DNA of 64,000 bases from Acanthamoeba sp. SK_2022b (lineage: Eukaryota > Discosea > Longamoebia > Acanthamoebidae), in assembly GCA_027943245.1 (NCBI GenBank), contig JANDJZ010000032.1:1-64000 (forward strand). The letters run 5' to 3'. The notes beneath the pieces are model-generated. The model had not been told where the DNA came from, searched no databases, and worked only from the letters and a program-made list of their open reading frames with translations. The position numbers and the translations under genes are program-made. Each line of letters opens with the position of its first letter. The stretch's first letter is position 1. Positions 10,196 through 57,174 of the stretch are shown here, one piece after another.

Positions 10196-10278
10196 AATGC
10201 TACCACTGCACCACAGCGCCCGTCACTCGTACGAGCGCCGCCCGGAATCGAACCGGGGTCTTCAGCACCCTAAGCTAA
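10196..10278 (-). tRNA. Circularly permuted tRNA-Pro (anticodon AGG) gene
   Basis: On the minus strand the 3' half comes first. Its anticodon arm is TTAGC / loop TTAGGGT / GCTGA (10278-10262; anticodon AGG at 10271-10269, U33 and G37 kept). Then come variable AGAC, T-arm CCCGG-TTCGATT-CCGGG (10257-10241), acceptor strand CGGCGCT (10240-10234) and discriminator C. A 12-nt linker follows (10232-10221). The 5' half is next: acceptor GGCGCTG (10220-10214), T8-G9, D-arm GTGC-AGTGGTA-GCAT, base 26 (10196). The two acceptor strands pair 7 of 7 (5 Watson-Crick, 2 G-U). Joined head to tail, the halves make a 71-nt cloverleaf with the usual Pro loop. The leader GGGAGG (10310-10305) is complementary to the trailer CCTCCC (10185-10180), followed by a TTTT stop (10179-10176). 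The segment just upstream of the 3' half does not pair with the acceptor, so an ordinary tRNA order does not fit. Exact ends of the halves are inferred. Confidence 0.75.
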
Positions 10279-10462
10279 TCGAAGTATTCCCGTTGCACCA
10301 TGCTCCTCCCAAAATAAAATATCTGTATCATTACCCCTCGACCGAAGAAAGCTGCTTGGGAAGCACCGTAGATCAGGGACCTGCTGGTGAACTTGTCGTT
10401 CTTCCGAATGGAGAACCCCACCGGTTGCGAACACAGGAGATAACGGCAAGCTGGAACTTTGG

Positions 10463-56075: not shown

Positions 56076-56545
56076 TTCTTCTTGGCCTAGTCAACTTGGA
56101 TCCTTCTGCCTCGCGAGGTTGTTTGTCGATTTGCTTCAAAAAGGGATCTTGTTGCTTTTTCGATTTCACTCAAAGGGGGTGTGGGGGCGTGGGCCGGCAC
56201 CAAAGCGTGCAGGAGCAGAAAAGCAGGGCTTAGCGTCACATCCAAAGAGTTCAAGATTACGAACTACAGTATGCTGCGCCTGCAGGTGGCCACCATCCTA
56301 CCACGCACTGATAATGGGAAAGCCTCTAACCGATGGAGATGACCGAGAGAAGAGAAGGAGACGGATGTGGAGCGACCTCAGCAAGGTTCGTCGACAAGGT
56401 CGGGCCAAAGCCCGAGGCGCAGAGGCTCTTGCAGGCCAAGGTGCCACTCGCCTCTTTTTCTTGGGTCGACGGGCACAACACCTGGTGTCGATCGTCCATG
56501 GCCATTGGGTTGTGGTGCATGGTCGAGGTGTCGCCATTGTCCGTT

Positions 56546-56675
56546 TCGCAGACCGTCTAAAACGATCATCGCGGGTTCGAATCCCGCCGTCCTCGTACCA
56601 TCAGAGGGCGTGGCCGAGTGGTTAAGGCGTTGAACTTCTAATTCAAATCTACTTCGAACCTGACGTAGTCTGCGA
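56546..56675 (+). tRNA. Circularly permuted tRNA-Arg (anticodon UCU) gene with leader/trailer helix
   Basis: The 3' half comes first: T-arm GCGGG-TTCGAAT-CCCGC (56571-56587), acceptor CGTCCTC (56588-56594) and discriminator G. After an 8-nt linker (56596-56603) comes the 5' half: acceptor GAGGGCG (56604-56610), T8-G9, D-arm GCC...GGC (56613-56628, with AGTGGTTAA loop), base 26, and a complete anticodon arm TTGAA-CTTCTAA-TTCAA (56630-56646; anticodon TCT at 56637-56639). The acceptor strands pair 7 of 7 with one G-U. Leader TCGCAGACCGTC (56546-56557) is complementary to trailer GACG-TA-GTCTGCGA (56662-56675): 12 bp with one 2-nt bulge, which would hold the two free ends together. The sequence before the T-arm does not supply a matching 5' half, so ordinary order fails. 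The join lies near base 43/44. A TTTTTTT run is at about 56736-56743. Confidence 0.8.
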
Positions 56676-57174
56676 GAGTAAGTGGCAAAGTCCCAGGGCT
56701 CGCGGCACCTGACGCGATCACCACCCAATAGATCTCTTTTTTTGTTAACAACAGCAACTGCTTCCTTGAAGTTCCCCCGTCCATCGGATGCGCTTGCGGG
56801 CCAGAGTGCACTCTGTTACACAGACGCACTCGGATCGGCAGTCGTTGCATCGGCGGTCGTCTGAAGAACTATGGGCGGCGGGCCTGACGTGCTGAATATG
56901 AAGCGGCGAGGGTGCACGAGGAACGAGCTTCAAGTTCATGGCTGCAGATCCGGGCGTCTGGATCACAACCTCACGAGCGAGGAACAGGCGCAGTGCCGCA
57001 TGAAGGTTATCCTGGGCAACACCCATCACATGTCGCTTGCAGAGTGGCTTCCCGCCTATCTGTTATGGCCATGGACGCAGCTTCTTGTCTCCTCTTCAAT
57101 TTAATCAATTAATCAATAAAGAGATATGATGAGAAAGGCTCTCTGCTTCCACCGCAGTGGCGCACACGCCTCAA
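56676..57174. other. Intergenic, no gene recognised
   Basis: Besides the T-run above, only short frames without family resemblance are seen. AATAAA at 57114-57119 may belong to a plus-strand transcript; the ANK/BTB gene ends on the other strand at 57175. Confidence 0.4.
56736..56743 (+). terminator. Likely Pol III T-run downstream of the permuted tRNA-Arg
   Basis: CTCTTTTTTTG, about 60 nt after the trailer helix. No T-run lies between the tRNA halves. Confidence 0.4.

Follow-up and report, generated by a model that had tools for sequence, protein, structure and literature searches.

A candidate circularly permuted tRNA-Arg(UCU) gene in Acanthamoeba sp. SK_2022b and tRNA loci of similar layout in the same genome

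The window, a stretch of 64,000 nucleotides of contig JANDJZ010000032.1 of Acanthamoeba sp. SK_2022b, has a G+C content of 56-60% and belongs to a contig of 219 kb. Named relatives of two of its proteins were found in Physarum and the dictyostelids (39-46% identity) and in a glaucophyte (48%), and also in oomycetes, chytrids, rotifers and some Streptomyces; the closer relatives are unnamed metagenome proteins. On the forward strand, at 56571-56646, lie the parts of a tRNA-Arg(UCU) in the permuted order that a preliminary description had proposed, in which the T-arm and the 3' acceptor strand precede the 5' acceptor strand, the D-arm and the UCU anticodon arm (Table 1). As had also been claimed there, the two acceptor strands pair fully (CGTCCTC with GAGGGCG, 7/7 including one G.U). 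The T-stem GCGGG/CCCGC forms 5/5 pairs and carries the T-loop TTCGAAT, and the stem of the anticodon arm TTGAA-CTTCTAA-TTCAA likewise forms 5/5 pairs, with the anticodon TCT at 56637-56639. A few bases of the variable loop, up to CATC (56567-56570), probably belong to the 3' half. CCA is not encoded. When the halves are joined through a variable loop of ACATC or ATATC, ARAGORN calls a tRNA-Arg(tct), and the joined sequence follows the consensus cloverleaf (U8, R15:Y48, G18G19, U33, U54U55C56), with G15:C48 if C48 is taken as 56570.

Both halves are enclosed by an outer helix made up of TTTCGCAGAC/GTCTGCGAGA, a 2-nt TA bulge and CGTC/GACG. The bulge had been described correctly in the earlier account, which gave the helix 12 bp where 14 bp were counted here; pairing of the flanks extends outwards beyond these 14 bp. 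A Pol III-type terminator sits 3' of the 5' half and none stands between the halves, there being no run of at least four T from 56547 to 56734. No TATA-like element was seen by eye within the 50 bp upstream of the locus (56490-56545); in the accessible part of a review of permuted tRNAs, such an upstream element is described for the permuted genes of one species, C. merolae (PMC3978253).

Table 1. Features of the Arg(UCU) locus and of the other candidate permuted tRNA loci
Feature	Position or locus	Strand	Details and basis
5' flank (leader), ends CGTCTAA (56554-56560)	56508..56560	+	homologous to the leader of permuted Leu(UAA); local alignment
5' strand of outer helix, TTTCGCAGAC + CGTC	56544..56557	+	direct reading; flank duplex energy
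Arg 3' half: T-arm 49-65 (B-box GGTTCGAATCC), acceptor 3' strand 66-72, G73	56571..56595	+	reading; model R1
Intervening sequence TACCATCA (8 nt), position 73 to position 1	56596..56603	+	direct reading
Arg 5' half: acceptor 5' strand, T8, D-arm (A-box TGGCCGAGTGG), G26, anticodon arm, A44	56604..56647	+	reading; R1; ARAGORN on joined halves
Trailer motif TACTTCGA	56650..56657	+	
3' strand of outer helix, GACG + TA bulge + GTCTGCGAGA	56662..56677	+	
3' flank (trailer) with GAGTAAGTGGCAAAGTC (56676-56692)	56650..56756	+	homologous to the trailer of permuted Leu(UAA)
T7 run, Pol III-type terminator	56737..56743	+	
Pro(AGG), weak candidate in the same window	10197..10286	-	motif; anticodon arm 10278-10262; T-arm 10257-10241; acceptor 3' strand 10240-10234; C73; 12-nt spacer; acceptor 5' strand 10220-10214 (7/7, two G.U); D-arm
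Permuted Leu(UAA)	L117, contig C698		acceptor CCCCAGC/GCTGGGG
Permuted Asp(GUC)	L118, contig C438		A73
Permuted Phe(GAA)	L119, contig C971		C73
Permuted Tyr(GUA)	L120, contig C1028		acceptor CCGCCGG/CCGGTGG; C1-G72; A73
Ala(AGC), weak candidate	L121, contig C52		6/7 acceptor pairs; 26-nt spacer

The locus was scored with a covariance model (R1) made from 18 ordinary tRNAs of the same genome (16 of class I and two Ser), which were permuted by script, the Arg locus itself being left out. R1 gives the Arg locus 72.4 bits (E 1.5e-17 over the 64-kb window). Of 91 control loci, which mostly surround ordinary tRNAs and in some cases overlap, the highest-scoring, a head-to-tail tandem pair of ordinary tRNA-Ser, reached 48.4 bits. 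The locus was missed by ARAGORN on the window and by Rfam at the gathering cut-off; RF00005 reached 28.9 bits for the 5' half (cut-off 29) and 15.2 bits for the 3' side. A linear tRNA reading of the locus was rejected: it stays below 29 bits, and the best upstream candidate for a 5' acceptor strand pairs at 5/7 positions.

The duplex between the Arg flanks was calculated at -60.1 kcal/mol, compared with -39.1 kcal/mol (s.d. 4.7) in shuffled sequences, none of which was as good (0/400). At the other loci the number of shuffles as good, again out of 400, was 1 for Leu, 28 for Ala, 31 for Tyr, 42 for Asp, 305 for Phe and 393 for Pro. The free minimum-energy fold of a 141-nt piece (z -2.0, 8/200 shuffles as good) pairs the Arg T-arm with the downstream stretch TTCGAACC and leaves the tRNA unfolded; in a 279-nt piece the Arg tRNA fold lies only 0.1 kcal/mol above the free optimum. 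This cost of forcing the tRNA fold was 5.5 kcal/mol for Leu, 4.9 for Tyr, 4.7 for Asp, 1.9 for Pro and 12.0 for Phe. The forced Arg fold contains no strict bulge-helix-bulge (BHB) at the junction, near which it forms CGTC/GACG and a 3-bp CGA/UCG helix flanked by 5 and 7 nt; relaxed BHB forms are described in the accessible part of the review (PMC3978253). When the Arg structure was laid on the Leu locus, 32 of 47 flank pairs were standard, four of them changed on both sides, and 15 were broken, compared with 18-22 standard pairs of 47 in slid-partner controls. A helix common to the Arg and Leu flanks is thereby supported, not proven.

The permuted Arg(UCU) locus is present once in the genome (44.9 Mb, 1129 contigs). 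An ordinary linear nuclear tRNA-Arg(UCU) gene, which the preliminary description had set against its own reading, was not found when the genome was scanned, the two linear UCU genes encountered being bacterial. The pattern for a linear, intronless Arg(UCU) gene gave four matches (ten for the reversed control), two of which are not tRNAs according to ARAGORN, while the other two are tRNAs with encoded CCA. The neighbours of these two (L034 on C1050, L035 on C1108), recognised by eye, are what we take to be folD and a phage-type integrase; the encoded CCA and these neighbours place both genes on bacterial contigs. All 33 matches to a tRNA-Arg D-arm pattern were inspected: five are not tRNAs, and the 28 tRNA-Arg genes have the anticodons ACG (15), CCU (7), CCG (2) and UCG (4), with no UCU. 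The joined Arg sequence used as a genome query matched nothing beyond its own two halves. These searches reach intronless genes with the usual arms; a UCU gene that contains an intron, or whose D- and T-arms are both unusual, could escape them.

Codon AGA accounts for 15 of 248 Arg codons in eight ORFs of the window, some of which perhaps read through introns. At residue 162 of the C4-sterol oxidase, each of the 120 best of 367 homologues has R opposite this codon. The second AGA of this ORF, at residue 255, faces a gap in 119 of 120 homologues, and the acetate-transporter ORF has no AGA. Judged from the aligned homologues, AGA means arginine in this genome.

Other loci of the same layout were sought in the whole genome with family patterns in which a B-box is followed, after a gap of 16-46, by an A-box. 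The one-gap patterns gave eight matches (2, 4 and 2), and none was obtained with any of the reversed-pattern controls. Two matches on contig C1037, tandem tRNAs that encode CCA, were set aside as bacterial on the matched strings alone. The remaining six are Arg(UCU), Leu(UAA), Tyr(GUA), Phe(GAA), Asp(GUC) and Pro(AGG), and all have 7/7 acceptor and 5/5 T-stem pairs. A search for ACTTCGA in front of a T-arm gave eight matches (reversed control 3), namely Asp, Pro, Tyr, a new Ala(AGC) candidate and four others, which were judged unrelated from the matched strings. One exact pattern each, applied to the viral and to the prokaryotic collection with records near the window left out, gave 0 matches of the same layout.

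At least four other tRNAs of the same genome, Leu, Tyr, Phe and Asp, thus appear from their sequences to be encoded in the permuted layout. Their anticodon loops are regular for the isotype, and the C1-G72 pair and A73 of permuted Tyr are eukaryotic Tyr identity elements. The anticodon stem of Tyr and Phe is complete, by eye, only across both halves. A tRNA-Phe usually has A73 and a tRNA-Asp G73, from which the discriminator bases of permuted Phe and Asp deviate. For the Asp locus a linear tRNA reading by Rfam, at 30.4 bits marginally above the cut-off (29), is a live competitor; it pairs 5/7 acceptor positions and leaves the D-arm outside the printed match, whereas the permuted reading closes 7/7 with an intact D-arm. 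The R1 score of the Pro locus, 39.2 bits, falls inside the range of the control tandem tRNAs; ARAGORN calls a linear gene there at 10232-10305 with a poor acceptor stem, and the linear reading by Rfam scores 19.5 bits. Linear copies of Phe(GAA) and Pro(AGG) exist in the genome. Just upstream of the Pro locus a D-arm-like stretch, GGTGCAACGGGAATAC, was observed, which may be a decayed copy, as expected of a tandem-duplication intermediate. This second permuted-looking tRNA in the window, the wider family and the bacterial Y RNAs had not been considered in the preliminary description.

The flanks of the seven candidates were compared in 21 pairs on two sides, 42 comparisons in all, against mononucleotide shuffles. 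The downstream flanks of Arg and Leu align with a score of 76 (shuffle maximum 39, 0/300), the homology running through the T7 run over about 107 nt, and their upstream flanks with a score of 36 (shuffle maximum 32, 0/300) over about 54 nt. Tyr and Phe are alike both upstream (34, 1/300) and downstream (37, 0/300); Pro and Ala are alike upstream (44, 0/300) and unclear downstream (23). Because 42 comparisons were made, no weight is given to seven further pair-sides, six of them at 1-4/300 and one, Asp-Pro downstream, at 0/300. The motif ACTTCGA occurs in 6/7 candidates and is absent from Phe; it stands 3' of the 5' half in Arg and Leu and 5' of the 3' half in Tyr, Asp, Pro and Ala. The idea that the downstream TTCGAA is the decayed T-arm of a tandem copy was given up in view of this 5' position of the motif in the latter four. 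The sequence GAGTAAGNGGCAANGTC (trailer GAGTAAGTGGCAAAGTC) has four places in the genome within one mismatch, and exact matches are confined to the Arg and Leu loci; no tRNA was seen by eye at the matches on C639 and C924.

The homology of both flanks makes Arg(UCU) and Leu(UAA) look like permuted paralogues, which they probably are. Over TGGCCGAGTGGTTAAGGCG the Arg D-arm matches the one of tRNA-Ser exactly; it also comes close to the D-arm of permuted Leu, and is not the D-arm of the other tRNA-Arg. This class-II-like D-arm suggests recoding between Arg and Leu, and one of the two was probably recoded from the other. Derivation from a Ser tRNA with a changed anticodon is not supported, in view of A44, where tRNA-Ser of this genome has T44, and of the arginine that AGA faces in all 120 homologues; G73, which is also found in the ordinary tRNA-Arg genes ACG, CCU and CCG here (the UCG gene has A73), was likewise counted against an origin from Ser.

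The halves of Arg and Leu would be joined at about 44/45, and those of Tyr, Phe, Asp and Pro at about 27-30 as placed by eye. For Arg the preliminary description had given 43/44, which is moved here to 44/45; its statement that the site differs from the published classes holds against those given in the accessible part of the Soma 2014 review, namely 15/16, 20/21, 37/38, 50/51 and 59/60 (PMC3978253). As presented in the same part of that source, the permuted genes of Cyanidioschyzon merolae, the prasinophytes, the Bigelowiella nucleomorph and Thermofilum pendens resemble the Arg locus in placing the 3' half first and in a downstream T run, their intervening sequences of 1-74 bp include the length of 8 found here, the C. 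merolae genes likewise lack an encoded CCA, and O. tauri too has a permuted Arg(TCT) (PMC3978253). Unlike the systems treated there, the present loci have junctions at about 44/45 and 27-30, no strict BHB was seen, the flanks are conserved and carry ACTTCGA, and the host is apparently no alga (PMC3978253). Judged from the openly available literature, what appears to be new is the lineage and the junction site at about 44/45; permuted tRNA genes themselves were already known.

We are fairly confident that the Arg locus is a nuclear circularly permuted tRNA-Arg(UCU) gene, probably the sole AGA decoder of the genome. The basis for this is the order of the sequence, the pairing, the homology of the flanks and the lack of a linear copy within the searches, from which we infer every step of expression and processing. 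Pol III would make a single transcript ending at the T7 run, and its flanks would form a long helix with interruptions, so that the outer ends of the halves meet in the region of the variable loop. Cuts near 44 and near 45-48 would be made by an endonuclease, most probably the one that splices tRNAs, and a ligase would join the halves into a circle. RNase P and tRNase Z would then excise the 8-nt TACCATCA loop, and CCA would be added. In the algal pathway, as given in the accessible part of the review, the splicing endonuclease cuts the junction, ligation of the ends yields a circle, and the spacer is taken out by RNase P and tRNase Z (PMC3978253). A dedicated route for permuted tRNAs can be suggested only tentatively, and we hold it to be doubtful: a conserved scaffold (ACTTCGA, GAGTAAGNGGCAANGTC in Arg and Leu, and the terminal stem), not a classical BHB, would place cut and join and so allow the tRNA to be broken in its variable loop or in the upper part of the anticodon stem; the same scaffold would have carried tRNAs across identities, from permuted Leu(UAA) to the only Arg(UCU) of the genome.

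An uncut transcript could instead act as a YrlA-type non-coding RNA, its tRNA-like domain being carried by a stem to which a Ro60-type protein might bind; we regard this as improbable. According to the accessible parts of two sources, a bacterial Y RNA superposes on tRNA via circular permutation (PMC11472068), and bacterial Y RNA has a long terminal stem, YrlA being described with D, T and acceptor arms (PMC8394870). The Arg locus resembles YrlA (RF02553) in the permuted order of its T-arm, closed acceptor arm and D-arm, which would sit on a putative terminal stem, and the flanks of the permuted loci can pair and end at T runs. The RF02553 model matches Tyr at 48.9 bits (E 2.2e-9), Phe at 35.4 (1.7e-5), Arg at 24.2 (0.006) and Leu, at chance level, at 19.9 (0.52). 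None of these four scores, however, reaches the curated cut-off (69), and no match up to E 10 was obtained for Asp, Ala or Pro. In the Tyr alignment the tRNA-like part alone matches, the stem being unmatched with 10 and 5 positions of its two strands skipped; since YrlA is itself a permuted tRNA, any permuted tRNA should match it in the tRNA-like part. Unlike YrlA, the permuted loci keep full anticodon arms, whose loops fit the isotypes, and tRNA-Arg(UCU) would otherwise be missing. No article joining 'YrlA' with 'permuted' was found in the open literature.

It is considerably less likely that two tandem tRNA genes shed their outer halves and left a non-functional, permuted-looking relic, AGA being read by an undetected linear gene. 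Such a relic fits the proposed origin of permuted genes by tandem duplication and loss of the outer halves, as set out in the accessible part of the review (PMC3978253), and the decayed appearance of the Pro and Ala loci and the linear Phe and Pro copies point the same way. The stems of Arg, however, are all intact, with a spacer of 8 nt, its flanks are conserved with those of Leu over about 54 and 107 nt, and the searches made found no linear nuclear UCU gene. An artefact of assembly or contamination is hardly credible, for although the assembly contains bacterial contigs, the window is part of a 219-kb contig, the named relatives of its two proteins are mostly eukaryotic, the Arg tRNA has no encoded CCA, and five strong loci of the same design lie on five contigs.

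If the permuted gene for tRNA-Arg(UCU) and its relatives are expressed, permuted tRNA genes would not be chiefly a peculiarity of algae and archaea, and a decoder that the cell needs could hang on a step through circular RNA. That two different tRNAs have homologous flanks offers a handle on the origin and spread of permuted genes, and on how the splicing system places cuts outside the anticodon loop. In organisms of this kind, essential tRNAs would escape a census of tRNA genes made with standard programs, and also any tRNA-seq analysis that maps to such a census. In the green alga Auxenochlorella, according to the accessible part of the report, permuted tRNA genes were noticed after tRNAscan-SE had given an incomplete set (PMC12636532). 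The same program was used in two of three amoeba-genome papers, Acanthamoeba being included among the three, as stated in their accessible parts (PMC12872441, PMC11702301); in the main texts of these two and of the third (PMC4053784) no word beginning 'permut' occurs.

Two minor observations were made on other sequences. Nine loci (L066, L067, L089 and others) hold 96-base linear tRNA genes with an apparent intron and the D-arm TGGCGCAATTGGTAGCGC, which ARAGORN calls Ile(gat). The Arg spacer TACCATCA and the Asp spacer ACACCATCAA (L118) both contain ACCATCA, perhaps a processing signal.
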